Shown here: positions 1,082-21,559 of the stretch, in pieces
Layout of the letters: each line of letters starts with the position of its first letter
Numbering within the stretch: the first letter of the stretch is position 1
Origin: a virus
Virus record (IMG/VR): IMGVR_UViG_3300032820_000078
Location: 1 to 28,934 of that record
DNA: 28,934 nucleotides
Strand: one strand, 5' to 3'
Notes under the pieces: model-generated
Databases searched by the model: none
What the model saw: only the letters and a program-made list of their open reading frames with translations
What the model was told of the DNA's origin: nothing
Position numbers and translations under genes: made by a program

Positions 1082-1207
1082 ATGTTTTTTAAAAAGAAAA
1101 TAAATAATGATATAATTTTTTCAAGTATCTATAAAGGATTACCAGAAATTGTTCCCATCAGGGAATCAAAATATTTTCATTTAGAGATTGCGGAAACTAA
1201 TGTCTAA
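1082..1207 (+). CDS. 41-residue ORF, possible remnant of a longer phage protein
   Basis: A 41-codon ORF starts at an ATG at 1082 and begins MFFKKK. Its stop codon overlaps the next gene's ATG by 8 nt (ATGTCTAA, 1200-1207). The same 8-nt overlap occurs at 1882-1889 and 3888-3895, which argues that the ORF is translated. The sequence reads as an FSSIYKGLPEIVPI strand-turn-strand and then stops, so it may be the N-terminal stub of a longer protein. The Shine-Dalgarno sequence is weak (GAGAATAGTG). Function is unknown. Confidence 0.35.
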   Translation: MFFKKKINNDIIFSSIYKGLPEIVPIRESKYFHLEIAETNV

Positions 1208-1889
1208 AATGGATTATATTTTTAATAACCCCCCCCATGTTAATAATTTATTTTCAAGTCAAGTATGGAAACATCAGACAGATAAAATAGATAACAGAAA
1301 ACTTGAAAATATTATATTAGAAAAAGAACAAAAAGATAAAGGTGTTACATTTACTAATGTCGGAGGATGGCAAAGTTCTCCTATAAATTTAAAAGAAGAA
1401 GAAGGATTTGAATGTATCTATAATTATATAAATGAATGTATGGAAGTTATTTTGATGAGAAATAACTATAAACAACACTTGGCCCTTCAGTCTAGTCATG
1501 GATGGATGAATATAAATCGAAAAGGAGATTTTAATAGGGAACATGTTCATCCCGATTGTCATTGGTCAGGTGTGTATTATGTAAAGGTTCGAGCTAATTG
1601 TGGTGAACTTATATTTCATAATCCTATAGCTGCTAGTTCAATGGTAGATTCTAGTCATCTTTTAAATATAAAATCCAAGAAAACCGATTATGATATTATT
1701 GGAGAACAACAAAATAATTTTGTAGATTCTTCTTTTCTTGGTGGAGTGACACTAGACCCCCATGAAGGAACACTTTTAATATTTCCTTCTTGGCTTTTTC
1801 ATTCAGTTTATCCCAATAGGTCAGATTATGATAGAATAAGTATTAGCTTTAATATTAAGATTATGGTTCCAGAGGAAACAAATGAATAA
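1200..1889 (+). CDS. 2OG-Fe(II) oxygenase family protein (2OG-FeII_Oxy_5 / TIGR02466-like)
   Basis: A 229-residue protein counted from the ATG at 1200; a TTG at 1188 would add four residues, but the ATG has GCGGA upstream and fits the local 8-nt overlap pattern. It shows the family signatures in order: an EKEQKDKG stretch, GGWQSS, WMNINRKGD, then REHVHPDCHWSGVYYV (His115 and His117), PHEGTLLIFPSWLFHSV (distal His201) and DRISISFNI (Arg212, the expected 2-oxoglutarate contact). Such proteins use Fe(II), O2 and 2-oxoglutarate to hydroxylate a substrate; phage members have unknown targets. The gene overlaps the next by 8 nt. An eight-C tract lies near its 5' end. It is paralogous to the gene at 18956-19549. 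Confidence 0.75.
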   Translation: MSKMDYIFNNPPHVNNLFSSQVWKHQTDKIDNRKLENIILEKEQKDKGVTFTNVGGWQSSPINLKEEEGFECIYNYINECMEVILMRNNYKQHLALQSSHGWMNINRKGDFNREHVHPDCHWSGVYYVKVRANCGELIFHNPIAASSMVDSSHLLNIKSKKTDYDIIGEQQNNFVDSSFLGGVTLDPHEGTLLIFPSWLFHSVYPNRSDYDRISISFNIKIMVPEETNE

Positions 1890-8031: not shown

Positions 8032-11000
8032 ATGGCTCAAAAGACAGACCTTAATGTAGCACCATATTATGACGACTTTGATTCATCTAAGAATTATGTA
8101 AAATCTCTTTTCCGGCCAGGATTTGCAATTCAGGCAAGAGAACTTACACAACTACAATCTACACTTCAAAATCAAGTCGCAAGATTTGGTGAACATATAT
8201 TTAAAGAAGGTGGTATGGTTATACCTGGCCAGGTCAGTGTTTTTCCCAATTATCATTCTCTGAAACTTGCTTCGACATTTGCTACTGAAACAGTTGATCC
8301 AGAACAGTATTATAGTGCTACAACTCCTGTTATTATTACAGGTGTTACAACTGGTGTTACTGCTCAAGTAGTTGGATATAATGTTGCGTCAACCACAGAT
8401 CAACCAACTTTATTTTTAAAATATATTAAAACTGGTACTGATGCAATAGAAAAAGTTTTTGAAGATGGAGAAAATATTACTGCAAATGCTGGAATAACAC
8501 ATACCACATCATATTCTAGTGGTATTGCATCTGCAACAACGTATACTTCTTCATTTAGTGTTACAGATAGTACCGTAACTACAGCACAATTTAGGGGTTC
8601 TACTGGGCCCGCCGCTGCTTCAGGTGTTGCTGTTGATATTCAAGCTGGTGTTTATTTTATTCGTGGTCATTTTGTAGAATGTGCTGAAGAAAGATTAGTT
8701 ATTAGCAAATATGATCCAGAGGTAAGTTTTCGTTGTGGATTTGCGATTACTGAAACTTTGGTTACACCCGAAGATCAATCAAGTCTTTTGGATAATGCTA
8801 CAGGTTCGTCAAATTATGCTGCCAAAGGTGCTCATCGTTTACAATTTTCTTTGGCATTGAAAAAACTAGACTATGATGCTACAGCAGATAGTAATTTTAT
8901 TGAATTAACCTCATATAATCGTGGTACTATACAAAGTATAACTCGTAATACTGAATATAATATTCTGGAAGAAACTATTGCTAGAAGGACTTATGACGAG
9001 TCTGGGGATTATACTGTTCGACCATTTCAACTTGTAATGAAGGAAAATACAACACTGAACAAAAATATTGGTGTATATACTTCTGGTGACACGACAGATG
9101 ATGGAAATGTTTCTAGTAATGCATTGTTAGCATGTCAGGTATCAACTGGTAAAGCATATGTTAAGGGTTATGAGATTGAAAAAATTGCTGCAACATTTAA
9201 AGACATTAATAAGGCAAGAGATGTAGAAAATGTTAATGCTGGTATTACAACATTTGACTTAGGAAATTACACAGTCATTAATAATGTTTATGGTACACCT
9301 GATATAACTGCAATTTCTGGAGAGTCAACCGCATATAAAACTATAAGTTTGTATGATCATTTTATAAGTACTGATGGAGCGGTTCCTACTAGTGGTGGAC
9401 TTTCGCCCGAACCCATTGGCCAATGTAGAGCTAGAGCTATAGAGTATGACTCTGGTACTATAGGTACTGATGATGCAAGATATAAGATTTATCTTTTTGA
9501 TATCAAAATGTTTACTTTCCTTACTCTTAGTGGTACGCCAAGTCCAACTTTGATTGCTAATTATGCAACTGGTGGTATAAAAATAACTGGTGTTGATTCT
9601 GGTGCTACAGGTTATGTTGTAAATAATATTGCTACTACATCTGGAACAAAAATAACTGTAATTAAAACTTCTGGTAGATTTTCTAACGGAGAAAAATTTA
9701 CAGCTTCTGATTCTGCTGAAACTAGTTCAATTGTAGAAGATTCAGGCAATACTGATTTGACTTTGGCTTCTGTTGGTGGTTCTAATGCTGATGATACAAG
9801 GACTTTTGAACAAGTTCGTTCTATGGTTATGGTAGATGCTTCTGCCGCTGCACAAAATTTCACGGCAGATTTGATTCAAGAAACCCCACAGCGAAGAGCA
9901 AATATTATTAATAATTTGACATTAGACGGAACAGATGCTGGTGGTGCTAATGCAAATAATACTTTTACTCAGGATGTAGGTGACGATGATCCTTCTGGTG
10001 GAATTATTATGGAAAATCCATTAATTCCAAGACTTGTTAGTCCTGAGAAAAATAATGCATTAGAAAAACTTCCAAAGCAAGTTATTAAGACTCTTTTAAC
10101 CACTAATAATTCTGGAGCATCTGATACACAATATACTGTTCGTAGACAGTTTATCGGAACAACTAATGCTTCTGGTATTGTTACATTTAATGCGAGTACA
10201 AATGAAACTTTTGTATCACATGTTGAAAAAGATTATGTAATGTCAATCCTTACTGCCGGTGGTGGTAGTGGAATTGTTGGCCAACTTGTTAGTATTGCTG
10301 ATACAGAAAGTGGGACAGGAACAGCTTCTCTTACGATTACTGATTCAACTGTTTTGGGTAGTGCTGCAAAAGTTAAACTTAGTGCAACTATTCTCAAAAC
10401 AAGTGTAACACAGAAAAATAAAACAACTAAACTTATGAAACAGATGAAGGTTGTGTCTGGTACAACTGATGCATATGGTACTCGTCCAACGGACAGAGAT
10501 ATTTCTTTAGGTCGTGCTGATGCATTTAAGCTGGTAGGTGTTTTTGACTCACAAGATGCCTCTACTGATGCTGTTGCACCTACTCTGACTTTGACTACAA
10601 TAACAGGGACATTTACCAGAGGGGAAAAGATTACAGGTGGTACAAGTGCTGCTACTGCTAGGATTATAAGCACATCTAGTCCTATGAGTTTTGTTTCAAC
10701 AAATAGTTTTTCTTTTACTGCTGAGACAATAACAGGAGACAGTTCTGGCGCAACAGCGACAGTTACAGCAACAACTGACGGTGATATCGTCATTACATCA
10801 AAATATTTACTTGATACGGGCCAGCGTGATAATTATTATGATATTGCAAGGATTGTAAGAAAGAGGAATCAAGCAGCACCTATAGGAAGACTTCTTGTTG
10901 TTTATGATTATCTTGAACATGGTGCTGGAGATATGTTTACGGTTGACTCTTACAGTGATATTGCAAAACAAATGGAATATGATGACATTCCAATATATAC

Positions 11001-14000
11001 TGCATCAAAGATTGATGTAGATGAAGCAGAACCATCAGGTAAATTTCCGTTATATGATTGTTATGATTTTCGTCCAAGAGTGGATGATGTTACAGGAGCA
11101 TCTGCAACGCTGTCAACGGTTGACGAAATAACAGGACAATCCTTTAATTTTTATAGTAGAACATTTGGAGGAATCGGCGGTACGACTGTAGATATTCCAA
11201 AACCCGGCTCTTTCATTCAAGCAGATTTTGAATATTATCTTCCTAAATTTGCATCTTTGATTTTAACTAATCAGGGAGATTTTAGAATAATTGAAGGTCG
11301 AAGTGCTGAAAATCCACTATTACCGAAAGTTCCAGACAATTGTATGTTAATTGCTACTATGTTTATTCCGGCATATACTTTCCTACCAAGAAATGTGTCA
11401 ATAAGAAAAGTAAAGCATCAAAGATATACTATGAAGGATATTGGTAAGATTGCTAAAAGATTAGATCATGTTGAGTATTATACAGCTTTAAGTTTATTGG
11501 AAAGAGATGCTGAAAGTTTTGAAGTCACTGATGCTAACGGATTGAACCGATTTAAATCTGGGTTTATTGTTGATAATTTTAAAGGTCATCGTATTGGTGA
11601 TACTGTACATAGAGATTATAAAAATTCTATGGATTTTGAACTTGGTCAATTACGGCCAAAACATAAAGCAAAAGCTATTGATTTAATAGAATCAACTTCA
11701 ACTGATGCGGTAAGAACTGCAGCTGGTTATCAAAAAACTGGTGATCTAATTACTCTTCCGTATACAGAAATAACATTAACAGAACAACCTTATGCTACGA
11801 GAACAGAAAAACTTAATCCTGTTATATCCTCTCAATGGCTGGGAAATATAACATTATCGCCAGAATCTGATACATGGTTTGAAACTGAAATTATACCAGA
11901 ACTAGTAATTAATGAAGAAGGTGATTATGACGCAGTTTTAGCTCAAGAAGCAAACAATCTTGGTTCTATTTGGAATTCTTGGCAAACTCAATGGTCAGGT
12001 GTTGTTGAAACACGAACTGATAATTGGACAGAAGGTGGAACACAATTTTCGCCTGACAGATTTGACGTAACAAGAACTACGGAAACGGTGAGAACAGATC
12101 AAACGAGAACTGGTGTTGATACTCAAGTTGCACTTAGAGTTGACAGAGAATCACAGGGTTTTAGAGTTGTCTCAACAACAGCCATTCCAGTTGTTCGCTC
12201 AAGAAGTGTAACTTTTACAGGTGAAGGATTTAAACCTAACACCAGATTGTATGCGTTCTTTAATAAAACTGATGTTAATGCTCATGTTACGCCTGCAAGT
12301 ACAGATTATACTACTGACTCAACTCCTGTAGCTGAAAGTCCTCTGGTTACAACTGCAACAGGTAAAGTGGAAGGGACATTTCTAATACCTGATCCAACAG
12401 TTGATGGTAATCCTCAATTTAATACAGGAGATATTGAGTTTAGACTTACTTCAAGTGACTATAATGGTATAGTTAGTACAGAACAGCGCCCTGGCACAGC
12501 AGGAGCCACAATATACTCTGCAATTGGAATGTTGGAAACAGAACAAGAAACGATTATTGCAACAAGAAATGCTACTGTTACGAGAACTGATTTATCACAA
12601 GAAACTTCTTTCAACACCACTCAAACAAATGATGTTCGTGCATTAACAGGTAATTGGAATGATGAACAAGCAGCAATTGCTGCAGCACAAGCGGCCGCCG
12701 CAGCTGCAGCACGACCAACACCCAATAATCAATCTTTCGCGGTGCCATGGCAACCGCCACAAAGTTTCCCAAACACCTCTACGATGGGCGGTTGTTTCAC
12801 AGTTGGAACACCGATTATTATGGATGATCATACATTGAAAAATATTGAAGATGTGAAAGTTGGAGATAGAGTTCATAGATTAGATGGTGAGTCGAATGAA
12901 GTTCTTGCACTTCAGCCTAATATATTTACTGGTGGACGTAAATTAGGTTCTATCAATGGTGGTGAACACTTCTTTACTGAAGACCATCCTCTTAAAACAC
13001 CCGATGGTTGGAAATCAATTAATGCTAAAATGTCAAACCTAAAATACAATATCGTCGGGGAAATTGGAGAATTGCGTATAGGTGATACTATTATTGGTCA
13101 TGCTGGAGATGATACTGTTATAACTTCAATAGAAACAAAAGAAGTCCCTGATGATACACCTATTTACAATTTTGAATTAGATGGTGATCACGAATATTTT
13201 GCTAACGGTTTCTTGGTTCATAATAAGAGCTCCAGCTGTTTCTTACCTGGCACCTCAATGACAATGGAAGACCATACAACTAAAAATGTTGAGGATATAG
13301 AAGTTGGAGATAGAGTTCATGGTGAAGGTGCAAATATTAATACTGTTCAAGAATTGCTTTATCCCTTTACAGATGGACGTAGAGTAGTATCTATAAATGG
13401 TGGTAATTATTTTACTACTGAAGACCATCCATTATTGACTACTGATGAATGGAAATCATGTAACAGTGAAATGTCACAAGAAAGATATCCAGAACTTAAT
13501 GTTGGCCAATTAGAGGTCGGTGATGAAATAAAAAGCCATCTTGATAAAGTCATTAAAGTAGAAAGTATTGATTTAAAAGAAGTTCCTTATGATACGCCAC
13601 TACATAACTTTACACTTGATGGTGATCATACTTATATTGCAGATGACTATGTAATGCATAATAAAGACCCATTAGCTCAAACATTTACGATGGAAGGTGA
13701 TGCGTCAGGCACAGGATTATTTATCACTTCCGTTGATATGTACCATCAAGCAAAAGATGATGTTCTTCCTGTAACGATGGAGTTAAGAAATGTTGTAAAT
13801 GGATTTCCCGGCCCCAAAGTTTTACCCTTTGGTCGAATAGTAAAAAATCCAGCAGATATTAATATTTCTGATACTGCTGCTACAGCAACTACATATACAT
13901 TTCCTTCACCAGTTTATGTAGAATCGGAGACTGAATATTGTATTGTTGCAAGTTGCAATACGGAAGCACATAAGGTTTGGATTGCCCGAGTGGGCGAAAC

Positions 14001-15507
14001 TGATATTAATGGTATACGAACTATATCTGAACAACCTCATGTTGGTATTCTGTTTAAGTCACATAATAATACTGGATGGTCAATGAGTCCGATGGAAGAT
14101 ATGAAGTTCACTGTGAAATGTGCTAATTTTTCTACTACTGCTGGTGTTTTAACACTAACGAATGATGATGTTCCAACACAGACTTTAGCTAAAGACCCAC
14201 TTATTATTACTGATGCTAGTACTACGATGAAAATTAATCATCTCAACCATCATATGCATGCTACAAATAATAATGTGACAATTTCTGGAGTCAAGTCTCC
14301 AGCGACTACAACTTTGAATGGCGCAATTAATTCCACAGCAACTACTTTGACATTAACTAGTGGAACTAATTTTGATGATACTTCTGGAATATATTCAAAA
14401 CTAGCCAATGGTCTTTGGTATATTAAAATTGATGATGAGATTTTAACATATACCACCATTAGTACTAATGCTGTATCGGGCCTTTCAAGAGCCGTGGATA
14501 GTACAACTGCTGCGGAACATGCTTCTGGTGCAACAGTAGAACTTTATCAAGTACATAAAGTACCATTTACAGAAATTAATAAGACGCATACTTCAATTGC
14601 AAATTCAGAAATTGATAGTTATACTTTGACTTTATCTACAACTCCTGTAGTTGATGGGTCAGGTAGTCTCTCTTCAATTGGTGGTTCAGTTGTAGTTGCA
14701 ACAGAAAATGCAATAATGGATGTGTTTTCAACACTTATTGGTATAATGGAATTGCCGGGCACTTCTCTTGCTGCTGAGGCCTTGGTGGTTAGAGCGACAA
14801 GTCCATCAGGTAGTCAGACTTCGTTTGAAAATACCCGTGATGATGAACTTGTACCGACAATTAAATATCCATTGAATGATAATTATAAGTTTGAAGTTCC
14901 TTATATGGTATGTTCAGCGATTAATGAGACAAATGAATTATCTTCACTAAGGTCATTTGAAACTCAAATTACAATGAAAACAGATACAGCGAGAATTTCT
15001 CCTGTTATTGATCTTGGTAGAACATCTATGATTGCAGTTGCAAATAGAATTAATAATATAGATTCGTCATCTGATGTATATCCCACATCTGGACATGTTG
15101 GTTCTCTTGCTGCAGAGGGTGATGAAAACGCTGCAATTTATATCACAAAACAAGTCACATTGGATAACTTAGCAACAGGAATAAAACTTTTATTTGCTGC
15201 TCACCGCCCATCTACAAATGATATTAAAGTGATGTATAAAATTTTGCCGGTTGATGAATCTGAAGATTTTGATAATTTGGGTTATACTTACTTTAATAGT
15301 GATGGTTCTCCTGATGCTACTGTATCAGCATCTGCTTCTATTAATGATTTTCATGAATACGAGTATACCGCTGGTGTAACTGATGAAGGTGTTGGTAATT
15401 CTTTGCAAGAGTTTATATCTTTTCAGATTAAAATCATTATGCAGGGAACTAACTGTGCAGAACCACCTAGAATTAAAGCAATGAGAGCTATAGCATTAGG
15501 AACATAA
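8032..15507 (+). CDS. Giant DUF4815-type baseplate/tail structural protein with two embedded Hint domains
   Basis: At 2491 residues this is the largest gene in the window. Residues 1-60 (TDLNVAPYYDDFD, then LFRPGFAIQARELTQLQ) are the DUF4815 hallmark of large structural proteins of marine T4-like phages. Residues about 100-1010 alternate beta domains with repeated G-AT-G-V and F--GE-IT modules. Residues about 1060-1260 hold a conserved block (YDCYDFRPRVDD, PVIPAYTFLPRN-like and DIGKIAKRLDHVEYY). An Ala-rich stretch (1547-1560) and a Pro/Gln-rich linker lead to two Hint domains (1588-1731 and 1736-1877). DPLAQTFTM (1879-1887) opens the C-terminal 614 residues, a second conserved structural region ending in PPRIKAMRAIALGT. 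It sits where T4 has genes 9 to 12 and wac, between gp8-like and gp13, so it is probably a baseplate or fibre-attachment component. The Hint domains suggest self-cleavage. Confidence 0.8.
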   Translation: MAQKTDLNVAPYYDDFDSSKNYVKSLFRPGFAIQARELTQLQSTLQNQVARFGEHIFKEGGMVIPGQVSVFPNYHSLKLASTFATETVDPEQYYSATTPVIITGVTTGVTAQVVGYNVASTTDQPTLFLKYIKTGTDAIEKVFEDGENITANAGITHTTSYSSGIASATTYTSSFSVTDSTVTTAQFRGSTGPAAASGVAVDIQAGVYFIRGHFVECAEERLVISKYDPEVSFRCGFAITETLVTPEDQSSLLDNATGSSNYAAKGAHRLQFSLALKKLDYDATADSNFIELTSYNRGTIQSITRNTEYNILEETIARRTYDESGDYTVRPFQLVMKENTTLNKNIGVYTSGDTTDDGNVSSNALLACQVSTGKAYVKGYEIEKIAATFKDINKARDVENVNAGITTFDLGNYTVINNVYGTPDITAISGESTAYKTISLYDHFISTDGAVPTSGGLSPEPIGQCRARAIEYDSGTIGTDDARYKIYLFDIKMFTFLTLSGTPSPTLIANYATGGIKITGVDSGATGYVVNNIATTSGTKITVIKTSGRFSNGEKFTASDSAETSSIVEDSGNTDLTLASVGGSNADDTRTFEQVRSMVMVDASAAAQNFTADLIQETPQRRANIINNLTLDGTDAGGANANNTFTQDVGDDDPSGGIIMENPLIPRLVSPEKNNALEKLPKQVIKTLLTTNNSGASDTQYTVRRQFIGTTNASGIVTFNASTNETFVSHVEKDYVMSILTAGGGSGIVGQLVSIADTESGTGTASLTITDSTVLGSAAKVKLSATILKTSVTQKNKTTKLMKQMKVVSGTTDAYGTRPTDRDISLGRADAFKLVGVFDSQDASTDAVAPTLTLTTITGTFTRGEKITGGTSAATARIISTSSPMSFVSTNSFSFTAETITGDSSGATATVTATTDGDIVITSKYLLDTGQRDNYYDIARIVRKRNQAAPIGRLLVVYDYLEHGAGDMFTVDSYSDIAKQMEYDDIPIYTASKIDVDEAEPSGKFPLYDCYDFRPRVDDVTGASATLSTVDEITGQSFNFYSRTFGGIGGTTVDIPKPGSFIQADFEYYLPKFASLILTNQGDFRIIEGRSAENPLLPKVPDNCMLIATMFIPAYTFLPRNVSIRKVKHQRYTMKDIGKIAKRLDHVEYYTALSLLERDAESFEVTDANGLNRFKSGFIVDNFKGHRIGDTVHRDYKNSMDFELGQLRPKHKAKAIDLIESTSTDAVRTAAGYQKTGDLITLPYTEITLTEQPYATRTEKLNPVISSQWLGNITLSPESDTWFETEIIPELVINEEGDYDAVLAQEANNLGSIWNSWQTQWSGVVETRTDNWTEGGTQFSPDRFDVTRTTETVRTDQTRTGVDTQVALRVDRESQGFRVVSTTAIPVVRSRSVTFTGEGFKPNTRLYAFFNKTDVNAHVTPASTDYTTDSTPVAESPLVTTATGKVEGTFLIPDPTVDGNPQFNTGDIEFRLTSSDYNGIVSTEQRPGTAGATIYSAIGMLETEQETIIATRNATVTRTDLSQETSFNTTQTNDVRALTGNWNDEQAAIAAAQAAAAAAARPTPNNQSFAVPWQPPQSFPNTSTMGGCFTVGTPIIMDDHTLKNIEDVKVGDRVHRLDGESNEVLALQPNIFTGGRKLGSINGGEHFFTEDHPLKTPDGWKSINAKMSNLKYNIVGEIGELRIGDTIIGHAGDDTVITSIETKEVPDDTPIYNFELDGDHEYFANGFLVHNKSSSCFLPGTSMTMEDHTTKNVEDIEVGDRVHGEGANINTVQELLYPFTDGRRVVSINGGNYFTTEDHPLLTTDEWKSCNSEMSQERYPELNVGQLEVGDEIKSHLDKVIKVESIDLKEVPYDTPLHNFTLDGDHTYIADDYVMHNKDPLAQTFTMEGDASGTGLFITSVDMYHQAKDDVLPVTMELRNVVNGFPGPKVLPFGRIVKNPADINISDTAATATTYTFPSPVYVESETEYCIVASCNTEAHKVWIARVGETDINGIRTISEQPHVGILFKSHNNTGWSMSPMEDMKFTVKCANFSTTAGVLTLTNDDVPTQTLAKDPLIITDASTTMKINHLNHHMHATNNNVTISGVKSPATTTLNGAINSTATTLTLTSGTNFDDTSGIYSKLANGLWYIKIDDEILTYTTISTNAVSGLSRAVDSTTAAEHASGATVELYQVHKVPFTEINKTHTSIANSEIDSYTLTLSTTPVVDGSGSLSSIGGSVVVATENAIMDVFSTLIGIMELPGTSLAAEALVVRATSPSGSQTSFENTRDDELVPTIKYPLNDNYKFEVPYMVCSAINETNELSSLRSFETQITMKTDTARISPVIDLGRTSMIAVANRINNIDSSSDVYPTSGHVGSLAAEGDENAAIYITKQVTLDNLATGIKLLFAAHRPSTNDIKVMYKILPVDESEDFDNLGYTYFNSDGSPDATVSASASINDFHEYEYTAGVTDEGVGNSLQEFISFQIKIIMQGTNCAEPPRIKAMRAIALGT
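12793..13224 (+). other. Hint domain 1 (intein/BIL-like autoprocessing domain) inside the giant protein
   Basis: Residues 1588-1731 (144 aa). Block A starts at Cys1588: CFTVGTPIIMDDHTLKNIED, then VKVGDRV. Block B is FFTEDHPL, giving the TxxH motif. Blocks F and G are IYNFELDGDHEYFANGFLVHN, with the penultimate His and terminal Asn of inteins at 1730-1731. The next residue is Lys, not Cys/Ser/Thr, so standard protein splicing is not expected; bacterial-intein-like domains of this kind usually cleave at one or both ends. There is no homing endonuclease insert. Confidence 0.8.
13237..13662 (+). other. Hint domain 2 (intein/BIL-like autoprocessing domain) inside the giant protein
   Basis: Residues 1736-1877 (142 aa), only four residues (KSSS) after Hint 1. 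Block A starts at Cys1736: CFLPGTSMTMEDHTTKNVED, then IEVGDRVHG. Block B is YFTTEDHPLLT. Blocks F and G are LHNFTLDGDHTYIADDYVMHN, ending His-Asn at 1876-1877, again followed by Lys. It is clearly a duplicate of Hint 1 (shared TEDHPL, WKS, GDHxY and HNK), but the middles have diverged. DPLAQTF of the structural protein begins two residues later. Confidence 0.8.
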
Positions 15508-15773: not shown

Positions 15774-15781
15774 TATAAATA
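15774..15781 (+). promoter_or_regulatory. T4-type late promoter box (TATAAATA) before gp13
   Basis: Exact TATAAATA 19 nt upstream of the gp13 ATG, with AAAAGGAAG Shine-Dalgarno between them. It probably starts the neck-terminase transcript. Confidence 0.65.
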
Positions 15782-16625: not shown

Positions 16626-17732
16626 ATGGCAGTTAATACAGCATTCCATACAAGCAATCTTCATTCCATTGCAACAGAAAGAAATTTATATAGTGACCTC
16701 ATAAAGGAGGCCATACAGATTTATGGCCATGATGTTTATTATATGGATCGTGATCTTGTAGCAGAAGATACAGTATGGGGAGAAGATTCTCTTTCTAAGT
16801 TTAGAACACAACATCCCATAGAAATGTATATGGAAGATGCTGACGGTGGATTTGCTGGTGAAAAAGAATTGATGAATCAATTTGGTCTGCAAAATTTAAG
16901 TGAAGCAACCTTTGTTGTTAATAAAGAAAGGTTTCAAGAATTAGATAGACAAATACAAATTCAAGATGCAACAGATACTAGTTCTAGTGGTTCAATACAA
17001 TTAGAAGCTGGAAGCACAGATCAATCATCATTATCATCAACATTAAGTACAGCTACACAAAGTTTTATTTTTGACGAAAGTGGAGAGAAGGTAGTTTTAG
17101 AAGATGATAATACAGGAAGAATATTATCTGAAGAAAGTGGTAATGAGTTTTATATTGTTTTAGATACAGCTGCAACGGACTCTGATCGACCACAAGAGGG
17201 TGATGTAATTTATCATCCAGTTCTGGATAAGATGTTCCAGATAAACTTTGTGGATCACGATGAACCATTTTATCAGTTAGATAATAATCCTGTCTACAAG
17301 ATGAGATGCCGTCTGTACGATTACAGTTCTGAAATTATTGATACTGGTATTTCAGATATTGATGCGATTGAAAGTGAACAATCACAGGACGCACTTATAT
17401 ATCAATTTACTATGGAACAGTCTTCAGCAGTTACAGAAGATATTCGATTGGAAGTTGGCACTGATGATGATGTTGCTTCTGGATTACTACTTGAAGAAAC
17501 AGATGGTGATAATATACTTGGTGAAAGTGATAGCACTTCTGTTGGTGAAAGTATTCTACTTGAAAATCCTGCTGATAGTGGTGATGATGCATATCTGATA
17601 CAGGAAGACTATATAGTAGGAGACTTTGATCAAGACAAGACATCTCAAAATGAAATGTTTGAAATTAAGAGTAGAACAGTTTTGGACTTCAGTGAATCAA
17701 ATCCATTTGGAGATGTAGGGAGCAGTTCATAA
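16626..17732 (+). CDS. 14: Neck protein gp14, with acidic repeat insertions
   Basis: A 368-residue protein. The N-terminus (NLYSDLIKEAIQIYGHDVYYM, split here as NLYSDLIKEAIQIYG and HDVYYMDRDLV, then EDTVWGEDSLSKF) is the conserved gp14 start. The central FYIVLD and GDVIYHPVLDKMFQINFVDHDEPFY (read as GDVIYHPVLDKMFQINFV and DHDEPFYQLDNNPVYKM) and a C-terminal DFSESNPFGD are also typical. T4 gp14 is 256 residues; the excess lies in two acidic, Ser/Glu-rich stretches at about residues 115-165 and 270-325, with LLLEETDGDN and SILLENP motifs. gp14 works with gp13 in the neck. The stop overlaps the gp15 ATG region by one base (TAATG). Confidence 0.85.
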   Translation: MAVNTAFHTSNLHSIATERNLYSDLIKEAIQIYGHDVYYMDRDLVAEDTVWGEDSLSKFRTQHPIEMYMEDADGGFAGEKELMNQFGLQNLSEATFVVNKERFQELDRQIQIQDATDTSSSGSIQLEAGSTDQSSLSSTLSTATQSFIFDESGEKVVLEDDNTGRILSEESGNEFYIVLDTAATDSDRPQEGDVIYHPVLDKMFQINFVDHDEPFYQLDNNPVYKMRCRLYDYSSEIIDTGISDIDAIESEQSQDALIYQFTMEQSSAVTEDIRLEVGTDDDVASGLLLEETDGDNILGESDSTSVGESILLENPADSGDDAYLIQEDYIVGDFDQDKTSQNEMFEIKSRTVLDFSESNPFGDVGSSS

Positions 17733-18541
17733 TGTTAGGACAACAATTTTATCACGAAACAATACGAAACATTGTTATTGCTTTCGGTACGATGTTTAAT
17801 GATATTCAGCTTGTTCGTAAAGACAATTCTGGAACAATAACACAAACCATGAAGGTTCCTCTTGCGTATGGTCCAAGAGAAAAGTTTCTTGTGCGGTTGC
17901 GTGAAGATGCAGATTTGACAAAACAGGTTGCAATTACTCTTCCTAGAATTGGTTTTGAAATTCAAAATCTTTCATATGATTCTGCCCGAAAAATGAGTAG
18001 AGTTCAACGATTTAAGAAAGTAAAGGGAGCAAACACAAAACAATTAGACACACAGTATATGCCTGTTCCATATAATCTTGAATTTGAATTATATGTTATG
18101 GCAAAACAATCTGATGATGCTCTGCAAATTGTAGAGCAGATACTTCCTTATTTTCAACCAGATTATGCATTAACTATTAATGATATGGCTGATATGGGTA
18201 TCACTAGAGATATTCCTATTGTTTTGGGCAATATTGGATATGAAGATAGTTATGACGGTGAATTTACTACTCGTAGAGCATTAGTATATACGTTATCATT
18301 TACTACTAAATTCTATCTATACGGACCAGTAACTTCTGCTAAAGTTATCAAAACTGTGCAAGTTGATCAGTATACAGACTTGCCAGATAAATCACCAAAA
18401 CGTGAACAAAGATATAAAGTTACTCCAAGTCCTTCAACTGCTGATGCTGATGATGATTTTGGATTTAATGAAACAGTTTCTTTCTATCAAGACGCACAAG
18501 GTTATAATCCAGAGACAGGTGAAGATGATAATAAATCATGA
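17732..18541 (+). CDS. 15: Tail completion / proximal sheath stabiliser protein gp15
   Basis: A 269-residue protein with the conserved gp15 opening (GQQFYHETIRNIVIAFG, then MFNDIQLVR) and a VPLAYGPREKFLVRL strand-loop, IGFEIQNLSYDSARKM and MPVPYNLEFELYVMAK. Length is close to T4 gp15 (272). In T4 it forms the hexameric terminator of the tail tube and sheath and connects to the neck. The start is fused to the gp14 stop (TAATG) and the end overlaps gp16 (ATGA), so translation of 14-15-16 is coupled. The last 40 residues are acidic and variable. Confidence 0.9.
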   Translation: MLGQQFYHETIRNIVIAFGTMFNDIQLVRKDNSGTITQTMKVPLAYGPREKFLVRLREDADLTKQVAITLPRIGFEIQNLSYDSARKMSRVQRFKKVKGANTKQLDTQYMPVPYNLEFELYVMAKQSDDALQIVEQILPYFQPDYALTINDMADMGITRDIPIVLGNIGYEDSYDGEFTTRRALVYTLSFTTKFYLYGPVTSAKVIKTVQVDQYTDLPDKSPKREQRYKVTPSPSTADADDDFGFNETVSFYQDAQGYNPETGEDDNKS

Positions 18542-18969
18542 TGACGAAAGATTCTAGATTAAGAATTGATAAAGAGCTCGGTGTTATAGATAAAATTGTT
18601 CCTAAGATTATACCCGATAATTCTGAGGTTGTACCCTATCAGGCTGAGGGTGGGGATGATATAGAAAAAGACTATGAATACCAAAGGGAAAACTTTTACA
18701 ATTTGGTTGAAAAAGGTTCATCTGCAATAGATGGAATACTTGAACTTGCAAAAGAAAGTGAGCACCCCAGAACGTATGAGGTGGCTGGAAATCTTATCAA
18801 ACAGGTCGCAGAAGTAACTGAAAAACTAGGCGATTTGCAAGAGAAGATGCGTAGATTAAAAGAGGTGCCAAGTAATGCACCTAAGAGTGTTACTAACGCA
18901 CTATTCATTGGTTCTACTAAAGAACTTCAAACTATGTTAAAGGATAAATTAAAGGATGAAAGTAATTGA
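18538..18969 (+). CDS. 16: Small terminase subunit gp16
   Basis: A 143-residue protein starting at the ATG of the ATGATG that overlaps the gp15 stop; a start at 18541 is equally possible. The core is a helical region (YEYQRENFYNLVEKGSSAID, then GILELAKESEHPRTYEVAG and NLIKQVAEVTEKLGDLQEKM), the conserved centre of T4-type gp16, with a C-terminal FIGSTKELQTMLKD motif. T4 gp16 (164 aa) forms a ring that recognises DNA and stimulates the gp17 motor. Unusually, gp17 does not follow directly: an oxygenase gene overlaps the last 14 nt of this ORF. Confidence 0.85.
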   Translation: MMTKDSRLRIDKELGVIDKIVPKIIPDNSEVVPYQAEGGDDIEKDYEYQRENFYNLVEKGSSAIDGILELAKESEHPRTYEVAGNLIKQVAEVTEKLGDLQEKMRRLKEVPSNAPKSVTNALFIGSTKELQTMLKDKLKDESN

Positions 18970-19549
18970 TAATGTAAAAAGTAAAGACATGTGGCCTACA
19001 ACCACATATACTTTTACAGTTAATAATATTGATAATGAATATGTAAAAAATAAAGTTTTAGAAAGAGAACAAAAAGGTTTAGGATTTCGTTTTGACCCAA
19101 TACAGGGTGGTGGTTGGCAAAGCAATAAAGACTTTCTTGACTACGAATTTTCTTTTTTGAAACAATCTCTTCTTGTTGGCGTAAATGAAATTTTGAGTCA
19201 GATTTATGTTGATGATGCCTCTATTAAAATGATTAATAGTTGGGCAAACATAAGTCGTAAAGGTGAATGTACTATGCCTCATATTCATGAGGAATCTAAT
19301 TGGTCTTGCGTTTATTATGTTACACCGACAGAGGATGCAAATCTTTATCTTAAAGACCCCAGACTATTAGAATATATGGATAAGTCTCATCATTATTTGA
19401 AACAGCCATACGCAAATATAATTAGAAAAAGACCATTTGATGCAGGCGAAGCAATACTTATTCCAAGTTGGTTAGAACATGGTGTTGGTGTTGGAACTAA
19501 AGATGCGATAAGAATAAGTATAGCAAGTAACTTCTTAATAGAGGGTTAG
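18956..19549 (+). CDS. 2OG-Fe(II) oxygenase family protein inserted between terminase genes
   Basis: A 197-residue protein of the same family as 1200-1889 (2OG-FeII_Oxy_5 / TIGR02466-like). Signatures in order: EREQKGLG, GGGWQSN, SWANISRKGECTMPHIHEES with NWSCVYYV (His109, His111), LYLKDPR, AGEAILIPSWLEHGV (distal His175) and AIRISIASNF (Arg186). All expected metal and 2-oxoglutarate positions are present, so it should be active. The ATG lies inside the end of gp16 (14-nt overlap), with AAAGG 12 nt upstream, and the stop is 2 nt before gp17. It is therefore in the packaging operon and expressed late with the terminase. The target could be a virion or host protein or a small molecule; nothing here decides it. 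Confidence 0.78.
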   Translation: MKVIDNVKSKDMWPTTTYTFTVNNIDNEYVKNKVLEREQKGLGFRFDPIQGGGWQSNKDFLDYEFSFLKQSLLVGVNEILSQIYVDDASIKMINSWANISRKGECTMPHIHEESNWSCVYYVTPTEDANLYLKDPRLLEYMDKSHHYLKQPYANIIRKRPFDAGEAILIPSWLEHGVGVGTKDAIRISIASNFLIEG

Positions 19550-19551
19550 AA

Positions 19552-21189
19552 ATGGAAACATATCTAGGTAATCCTAATCTAAAGAAAGCCAATGTCGCTC
19601 AAGAGTGGACAAAGGAAGAGGTTGAGGAATATGCTAAGTGCATGAATGATCCTCTGTATTTCATACAGGAATATATTAGAATTATTTCTCTAGACCTAGG
19701 CCTTATTCCATTTAAGCTTTACGATTTTCAGAAGGAAATGGTAGGGACATTCCATAATAATCGGTTTACTATCTGCAAACTTCCTAGACAATCTGGAAAA
19801 TCTACTACTATCATTGCATATTTGTTACATTATGTTTTATTCAATCCATCAGTGAACGTAGCAATTCTTGCAAACAAGGCTGCAACTGCGCGAGATTTAC
19901 TAGGGAGGCTACAACTCGCATACGAGAATTTACCCAAGTGGTTACAACAGGGAGTAATGACATGGAATAAGGGGAGTCTAGAACTTGAAAATGGGTCTAA
20001 AATTTTAGCATCATCCACCTCTGCCAGTGCTGTTCGTGGCGGATCATACAATATTATATTCTTGGATGAGTTTGCTTATGTGCCAGCAAATGTTGCCGAA
20101 CAGTTCTTTTCTTCAGTTTATCCTACAATAAGTTCTGGTACGACAACTAAAGTGATGATTGTTTCTACCCCACATGGTATGAATATGTTCTATAAGTTGT
20201 GGACCGATGCAGAGAACGAAAGAAACTCATATATTCCTATTGAGGTGCATTGGAGTGAAATACCTGGCAGGGATGAGAAGTGGAAAGAAGAAACAATCAA
20301 GAATACTTCAGCATCACAATTCAATACAGAGTTTGAGTGTGAGTTTCTTGGGTCTATTGATACATTAATTACACCACAAAAGTTAAGAACAATGACATAT
20401 AAAAATCCCAGGCAATCAAATGCTGGATTGGATTTATATGATAAACCACAAGAGGGACATACTTATGTGTTGACAGCTGATGTTTCTCGTGGCACATCAA
20501 ATGATTATTCTGCATTTTTGGTGTTTGATGTATCAGAAATGCCTTATAGAATTGTTGCAAAATATCGAGACAATGAAATTAAACCGCTAATATTTCCTTC
20601 TAAAATATATGATATTGCTCGAGCATACAATCAAGCATTTGTACTTATAGAAATAAATGACATTGGTGAACAGGTTGCAACTACTATGCAGTTTGACTTG
20701 GAGTACGACAACCTTATTATGGCTTCTATGCGTGGACGGGCGGGACAAGTCCTTGGAGGGGGGTTCTCAGGTGGCCGAGCTCAATTAGGAGTAAGAACTA
20801 CCAAAGCAGTAAAAAAAGTTGGTTGTTCTAATCTTAAACAATTAATAGAAGATAACAAATTAATAATAGAAGATTTGGATATTATTAGTGAATTATCTAC
20901 ATATATTGTGAAGGGACACTCCTTTGAAGCTGATGATGGTTGTACAGATGATTTAGTTGCATGTTTATTTTTATTTGCATGGACTAGTGATCAGACATAT
21001 TTTAAAGAATTAACTGATATGGATGTACGACAAACCATGATGAGAGAACAACAAGATGCTCTAGAACAGGATATGGCCCCATTTGGATTTGTTGTTACAG
21101 GACTAGAAGATGAAAATATTGGAGAAGTTATAGATGAATATGGTACTAGATGGAATCCTGTAGTGCGAGATTATGGTTCAAACTGGTAA
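19552..21189 (+). CDS. 17: Large terminase subunit gp17 (ATPase-nuclease packaging motor)
   Basis: A 545-residue protein. The ATPase domain has Walker A LPRQSGKST (residues 77-85), Walker B IIFLDEF with Asp172-Glu173, and the coupling motif VSTPHG shortly after residue 200. The C-terminal RNase H-fold nuclease has its acidic triad in TADVSRGTSNDYSAF (Asp310), LIEINDIGEQV (Glu367) and ADDGCTDDLV (Asp466 or Asp467). T4 gp17 is 610 residues; this form lacks part of the N- and C-terminal extensions but both enzymes look intact. It cuts concatemeric DNA and drives it through the gp20 portal. GAGGG precedes the ATG. It closes the neck-terminase operon; a minus-strand gene converges on it. Confidence 0.95.
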   Translation: METYLGNPNLKKANVAQEWTKEEVEEYAKCMNDPLYFIQEYIRIISLDLGLIPFKLYDFQKEMVGTFHNNRFTICKLPRQSGKSTTIIAYLLHYVLFNPSVNVAILANKAATARDLLGRLQLAYENLPKWLQQGVMTWNKGSLELENGSKILASSTSASAVRGGSYNIIFLDEFAYVPANVAEQFFSSVYPTISSGTTTKVMIVSTPHGMNMFYKLWTDAENERNSYIPIEVHWSEIPGRDEKWKEETIKNTSASQFNTEFECEFLGSIDTLITPQKLRTMTYKNPRQSNAGLDLYDKPQEGHTYVLTADVSRGTSNDYSAFLVFDVSEMPYRIVAKYRDNEIKPLIFPSKIYDIARAYNQAFVLIEINDIGEQVATTMQFDLEYDNLIMASMRGRAGQVLGGGFSGGRAQLGVRTTKAVKKVGCSNLKQLIEDNKLIIEDLDIISELSTYIVKGHSFEADDGCTDDLVACLFLFAWTSDQTYFKELTDMDVRQTMMREQQDALEQDMAPFGFVVTGLEDENIGEVIDEYGTRWNPVVRDYGSNW

Positions 21190-21192
21190 AAA

Positions 21193-21495
21193 CTAAATAA
21201 ATTCAATTAAATCGTTATCTGCTTTAATCCAACAATTTGAACATAATATGGTGGAGTTACCTACCAGATGAAATATTTCTTTACGACTTTTATTATTAGT
21301 ACCAACTCGCTTTGTTAATTTTCGTATTTCTGAATCATGAGGATAGAATTTGAGACATATAGTTTCACTCTCTCCACAATGGTTACATGACTTATCTGAT
21401 AAGAATTCGTTAAGTAGAATGATTCTTTTTCGATAATTTCTACGAGCTACCTTCTTTATGGTATCTTTATACTTCTCATAATGTGCGTTTGTCAT
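21193..21495 (-). CDS. Degenerate HNH-like zinc protein (opposite strand)
   Basis: A 100-residue protein, the only convincing minus-strand gene. A basic helical N-terminus (residues 6-25) is followed by CNHC (Cys37, Cys40), an LKFYPHD stretch (residues 48-54), a Lys-rich middle and LCSNCW (Cys85, Cys88). This spacing is that of small phage HNH endonucleases with two CxxC zinc knuckles, where the centre usually reads L-FHH and the end C-NCH. Here the first His position is Tyr-Pro-His and the final His is Trp89, so catalytic residues look lost or altered. It may be a decayed homing endonuclease or a DNA-binding derivative. It converges on gp17 with a 3-nt gap and is divergent from gp18. Confidence 0.6.
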   Translation of the reverse strand: MTNAHYEKYKDTIKKVARRNYRKRIILLNEFLSDKSCNHCGESETICLKFYPHDSEIRKLTKRVGTNNKSRKEIFHLVGNSTILCSNCWIKADNDLIEFI

Positions 21496-21551: not shown

Positions 21552-21559
21552 TATAAATA
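21552..21559 (+). promoter_or_regulatory. T4-type late promoter box (TATAAATA) before gp18
   Basis: Exact TATAAATA 44 nt upstream of the gp18 ATG, with AAAGGAG as a strong Shine-Dalgarno just before the start. It probably drives the sheath and tube genes. Confidence 0.65.

Follow-up and report, generated by a model that had tools for sequence, protein, structure and literature searches.

Does a predicted oxygenase gene that lies between the two terminase subunit genes of a T4-like phage owe its place to a function in DNA packaging, or is this interval a slot for cargo that happens to be expressed late? The question was raised by a virus record of IMG/VR with a length of 28,934 bases (referred to here in its entirety as the window), in which genes follow the T4-like order gp13-14-15-16-oxygenase-17-18-19-20. 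The gp17 of the window was found to be closest to that of Methylophilales phage Melnitz (72%), followed by Pelagibacter phage HTVC008M (68%) and then cyanophages (approximately 66%), and by this gene product the phage appears to be a relative of Melnitz and HTVC008M and not a cyanophage. A first-pass annotation had described an intact oxygenase gene between the terminase subunits, overlapping gp16 by 14 nt and with its stop codon 2 nt before the ATG of gp17, and these coordinates were confirmed. The features concerned are listed below.

1188..1889, + strand: second PF13759-type oxygenase, a distant paralogue (approximately 30-35% identity), adjoining a DenV-like endonuclease gene
15774..15781, + strand: predicted T4-type late promoter TATAAATA before gp13, start of the gp13-14-15-16-oxygenase-17 unit (from position and conservation)
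17732..18541, + strand: gp15, tail sheath stabiliser, part of the predicted gp13-gp17 late unit (domain/PHROG match)
18538..18969, + strand: gp16, terminase small subunit, left border of the slot (PF11053, phrog_445)
18939..18944, + strand: AAAGGA inside gp16, possible Shine-Dalgarno sequence for the oxygenase (from sequence)
18956..19549, + strand: oxygenase (PF13759 / TIGR02466 / phrog_81), cargo of the slot, 197 aa, ATG to TAG
19540..19545, + strand: AGAGGG at the end of the oxygenase, within its final codons, possible Shine-Dalgarno sequence for gp17 (from sequence)
19552..21189, + strand: gp17, terminase large subunit, right border of the slot (PF03237/PF17289, phrog_2)
21193..21495, - strand: HNH-endonuclease-like gene, apparently degenerate, directly behind gp17 (weak HNH match; residues read by eye)
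21552..21559, + strand: predicted T4-type late promoter TATAAATA before gp18, start of the next late unit (from position and conservation)

On profile matches, the assignment of the oxygenase to its family is firm, with 59.5 bits against PF13759 (E=4.6e-16, cut-off 27), 76.6 bits against TIGR02466 (2.3e-21, cut-off 62.5) and a match to phrog_81 at 2.1e-28. Scanning IMG/VR identified 21 close relatives with 85-91% amino acid identity. As the full 594-nt frame is kept in all 21 of these, with dN/dS of 0.09-0.16 relative to the window gene, this is not a chance ORF, and the gene is under purifying selection. Residues His109, His111, His175 and Arg186 were present in all 22 sequences (window and close relatives). 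Loss of the His/His/Arg set in close relatives and restriction of the gene to one assembly were the two outcomes that the first-pass annotation had held to speak against it; the set was kept throughout, and 62 relatives of at least 57% identity were found on dozens of marine contigs. The possibility of an assembly artefact or chance ORF, for which no support was found, is negligible, and was ruled out by intact frames and identical junctions in independent contigs from dozens of metagenomes. A BFVD model (A0A1B1ITZ6, 84% identity, unnamed in the tables used) indicates that a member of the subfamily has already been deposited in UniProt. The scan of the genome collection gave no bacterial relatives of the subfamily, and for this reason no donor host is named.

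A wider profile scan identified 64 oxygenase loci, on contigs that are mostly short; 62 of them reach 57% identity or more, leaving two distant matches (30%) elsewhere. The order gp16-oxygenase-gp17 was found at 59 of 59 loci of at least 57% identity for which both flanks are visible (with two oxygenases in the slot at seven of these), and the remaining three of the 62 end at a contig edge, with the single visible flank in agreement. The slot subfamily is thus strictly positional, lying between gp16 and gp17 in all readable loci at this identity, and no member at this level was seen outside this interval among loci with readable flanks.

The state of the slot was also determined in 80 contigs chosen by gp17 similarity alone, of which 12 do not have both flanks visible, leaving 68 readable. 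The slot was empty in 33 of these and held the oxygenase in nine, a nuclease in ten and other cargo in 16; for the spread of the 16-oxygenase-17 order, which the first-pass annotation had proposed to check, the counts are 59/59 two-flank loci and 9/68 readable contigs sampled by gp17. The nuclease is an SNase-type endonuclease (phrog_452, PF00565), with further genes beside it in some contigs, and other cargo includes an SSF transporter, an asparagine-synthase domain, a fatty-acid hydroxylase, DUF924 and a PF13640 oxygenase. The cargo of four contigs (L095, L097, L099, L103) is approximately 142-143 aa in length and without family, with a weak mechanosensitive-channel match, below cut-off, for L095 and L103. 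One contig, L029, is a sister of the window (gp15 97%, gp16 96% and gp17 97% identical) without the oxygenase, and at its empty site gp16 ends 2 nt before gp17 in a clean junction. The ATG of the oxygenase (GGATGAAAGT) is also found in this empty allele, out of frame. On a gp17 tree, eight changes of oxygenase state are needed, seven of them forced by well-supported branches (quick method). The oxygenase is dispensable: it lacks the universal presence of the T4-like core packaging module (33/68 empty; L029), and it has the gp16-gp17 location and the variable presence and content among close relatives that mark cargo of a hyperplastic region.

Such a region is known from cyanophages. The gp16-gp17 interval was earlier identified as a cyanophage hot spot by Millard et al., 2009 (Sullivan 2010, PMC3037559), a g15-g18 hyperplastic region has been described (PMC2984593), and it is shown in Syn9 (PMC4928673). 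Counterparts of the SNase-type endonuclease of the slot (T4-GC228) and of the endonuclease remnant behind gp17 (T4-GC282) are described in these papers. The first-pass annotation had implied that the split of gp16 and gp17 is unique, which did not hold, with many marine T4-like phages found to carry cargo between the two: Melnitz an F5/8-type C protein, HTVC008M a PF13759 oxygenase and a tryptophan halogenase (prnA), Mosig a short gene, and cyanophages P-HM1, S-PM2, P-SSM2, S-CAM7, ACG-2014i and MED4-213 various genes, with zwf, gnd, PTOX and an SNase-type endonuclease directly upstream of gp17 in Syn19. Like the cyanomyovirus region, the slot described here lies in this interval of the late structural block, its content varies and includes host-like metabolic genes and an SNase-type endonuclease (T4-GC228), and remnants of endonucleases follow gp17. 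It differs in that it usually holds just one or two genes, tightly overlapping, in that the phage is a Melnitz/HTVC008M-like relative and by gp17 not a cyanophage, and in that a single subfamily of oxygenases is fixed there.

A parallel in gene order is HTVC008M, in which a PF13759 oxygenase likewise lies directly behind gp16; the order is thus already visible in an annotated record, for a related oxygenase. However, the HTVC008M slot oxygenase is only approximately 28% identical to that of the window, falls outside the slot subfamily in the family tree and is followed by the halogenase, and it probably represents an independent entry. In the same tree, which has many long branches and whose deeper joins are unsure, a single clade (100/99) unites the slot oxygenases, the tandem copy among them, with L113, which comes from an unrelated phage. 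Both the HTVC008M gene and an extra copy in contig L132 fall outside this clade, and therefore PF13759 genes have entered the slot on more than one occasion. The open-access literature yielded no paper on an oxygenase situated between gp16 and gp17; the strict positional fidelity of one subfamily, together with two recent gains or losses with short shared junction sequence (described below), are small points that are new.

Expression was examined from predicted signals. An exact TATAAATA is situated 27 nt before gp13 and another 52 nt before gp18, with none on the + strand between these two. As the six exact copies in the window (3.1 expected) are by themselves not above chance, the promoter assignment is based on position and on conservation in relatives, where the late promoter was found 46-69 nt before gp18 in 38/40 and before gp13 in 19/22, and inside gp15-gp17 only in five contigs of one close group. 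Predicted late promoters before gp13 and gp18, and none between, place the oxygenase most likely in the gp13-gp17 late unit. The last oxygenase codons (ATAGAGGGT) give AGAGGG at a normal distance from the start of gp17, so that the cassette carries the predicted ribosome site of its downstream neighbour.

The canonical metal triad of 2-His-1-carboxylate 2OG oxygenases is HxD/E...H. The claim of the first-pass annotation that all predicted metal residues are present was found to be accurate for the HxH...H motif of this family and inaccurate for the canonical triad, the acidic residue being absent and His111 standing in its place. Across 46 aligned family members, His109 and His175 are invariant, His111 is present in 45 including the window (the exception has Asp) and Arg186 in 42; an alternative H111-x-E113 is conserved only within the slot subfamily. 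The AlphaFold2 model of the oxygenase (pLDDT 87.3) has a double-stranded beta-helix (DSBH) fold, with best matches to 3bvc and 2rg4 (Z about 21), two uncharacterised members of the family. These solved bacterial proteins share the domain, fold and HxH...H motif with Arg of the window oxygenase, whose subfamily is set off from other PF13759 members by the motifs HIHEE and PIQGGGWQSNK. Next came the prolyl-4-hydroxylases (P. putida P4H, solved with EF-Tu, PHD2 and PBCV-1 vCPH; Z 16-18 over 150-165 residues), alongside small-molecule enzymes. With 9-15% identity to these hydroxylases, and HxD in them in place of HxH, the resemblance in the model would be one of fold and no further.

Replacement of the canonical acidic ligand by His111 might suggest that an altered metal centre has cost the protein its 2OG oxygenase activity and that it performs another role. 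This is very unlikely, given that HxH...H with Arg is kept across nearly the whole family, 2rg4 and 3bvc included, and that the oxygenase is under strong purifying selection; the motif looks like a family trait and not decay. Iron and 2OG chemistry would be expected of the enzyme, the use of 2OG being suggested by the family name. To our knowledge, no member of the PF13759/TIGR02466/phrog_81 family has been characterised, and no characterised PF13759 enzyme was found in the open-access literature.

It is probable that the gene is an active, optional PF13759 cargo gene of the gp16-gp17 slot, expressed late with gp13-gp17, with overlaps that keep its flanks translationally coupled. It would be a moron or auxiliary gene in this slot of marine T4-like phages, transcribed as part of the late unit; its overlapping start and stop signals would maintain coupling of the flanking genes, and its product may have an effect on host or virion chemistry that is unrelated to the motor. 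This corresponds to the hot expression slot that the first-pass annotation had offered as an alternative, which is the best reading and is supported by promoters found only before gp13 and gp18 and by the published cargo hot spot. What counts against it is the positional fidelity of the subfamily (59/59), which a role linked to packaging would also produce. If the place of the gene reflected its function, the enzyme might be a protein hydroxylase that acts late on a component of the packaging machinery or virion (gp16, gp17, portal or neck). This would fit the positional fidelity, the location in the late unit and the presence of protein prolyl hydroxylases among the nearest folds beyond its own family (e.g. 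P. putida 4iw3 with EF-Tu), yet it is improbable. The L029 sister, with gp17 97% and gp16 96% identical, lacks the gene, the slot is empty in 33 of 68 readable relatives, and the fold class also spans the small-molecule oxygenases SnoN, HygX and KanJ. Furthermore, the few gp15-gp17 residues that separate carriers from L029 include no obvious substrate, and comparison of gp15, gp16 and gp17 between carriers and non-carriers gave no clear candidate, with relatedness as a confounder. Hydroxylation of a virion or packaging component, as put forward by the first-pass annotation, gained no support beyond a fold like that of protein hydroxylases, position and fold being what the idea draws on. Such a substrate is doubted because near-identical sisters lack the gene, unrelated genes occupy the slot and relatives lie in other core operons (phoH-oxygenase-exonuclease-gp33-gp59, uvsY-oxygenase-uvsW and the psbA region). 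Embedding in core operons is thus a habit of the family and says little about substrate. A bolder version, in which the slot-bound three-histidine oxygenases are a dedicated late packaging or virion protein hydroxylase whose cassettes are swapped via short shared leader and trailer sequences, is slightly less probable still.

There is close to an even chance, falling a little short of it, that the enzyme is a metabolic AMG whose substrate during infection is a small molecule or glycan, for instance in 2OG/nitrogen metabolism or DNA repair, roles that have been proposed for cyanophage 2OG oxygenases (PMC3037559). In favour of this is the multiplication of the family (about 13 copies in HTVC008M and eight in AG-345-F15) in varied core operons, together with a relative of the tandem copy that lies beside methyltransferase and MptE-like genes in an unrelated phage. 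However, for an enzyme that reprogrammes metabolism, co-expression with the late genes would come late in infection. This possibility refines the cargo explanation more than it competes with it.

The oxygenase enters and leaves the slot as a one-gene cassette, and the subfamily may be retained there by vertical inheritance together with recombination, either through the conserved flanks or through short leader and trailer sequences that are shared. Two pairs of near-twins bear on this. L132 and L133 (gp17 99.8%) differ in that L132 has an extra, distant oxygenase, flanked by a perfect 21-nt direct repeat ACAATTAGGATTATATTATGA that covers the ribosome site and ATG, and L133 has a single copy of this sequence. 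L008 and L010 (gp17 99.3%) also differ by an extra oxygenase, the last 39 nt of which match the end of the resident gene at 38 positions. Gain or loss via recombination between short stretches of shared leader or trailer sequence is a possible explanation of both pairs, from two events of which the direction is not established and with family homology contributing in L008/L010. Shared junction sequence was found only at these two recent events and not at older cassettes; when established cassettes were searched more generally for flanking direct repeats, the longest was 9 nt, which is not above the null of up to 10.

With these results, the cyanophage hot spot for cargo at the terminase genes extends to relatives that are not cyanophages, in the present case with a single subfamily of oxygenases. 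According to a 2016 review, it is not known by what mechanism auxiliary genes become localised to such regions (PMC4928673), and near-identical allele pairs (empty or filled, one or two genes) provide concrete junctions, two of them with short shared sequences, at which this can be tested. The unusual HxH...H metal motif also deserves the attention of enzymologists, the phage oxygenase family that carries it being large and uncharacterised.

Further observations were made on the genes around the slot and on its relatives. The HNH-like gene behind gp17 has apparently lost its catalytic histidines (NCW for NCH, by eye); it is kept at 81-98% in slot relatives, has 58% to a Melnitz gene in the same place, and its site is comparable to that of the T4-GC282 endonucleases of cyanophages. 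Five contigs (L003, L009, L011, L013, L017) have a gp17 of just 76% relative to the window, with oxygenases at 86-91% and HNH genes at 85-93%, which points to a diverged or exchanged gp17 allele. For the second oxygenase of the window, a single close relative was found (73%, L108). The relative of the tandem slot oxygenase (74%; L114, 1121-5576), which adjoins MptE-like and methyltransferase genes, belongs to a phage whose packaging gene is of another type (Terminase_2), and the oxygenase gene thus crosses phage types. The approximately 13 PF13759 oxygenases of HTVC008M (NC_020484, L183-L191) lie in a genome of 147 kb, with three clustered on the minus strand at 58-59 kb. Positions 8032-15507 of the window encode a protein of 2491 aa, the best PHROG of which is phrog_358, with no assigned function.
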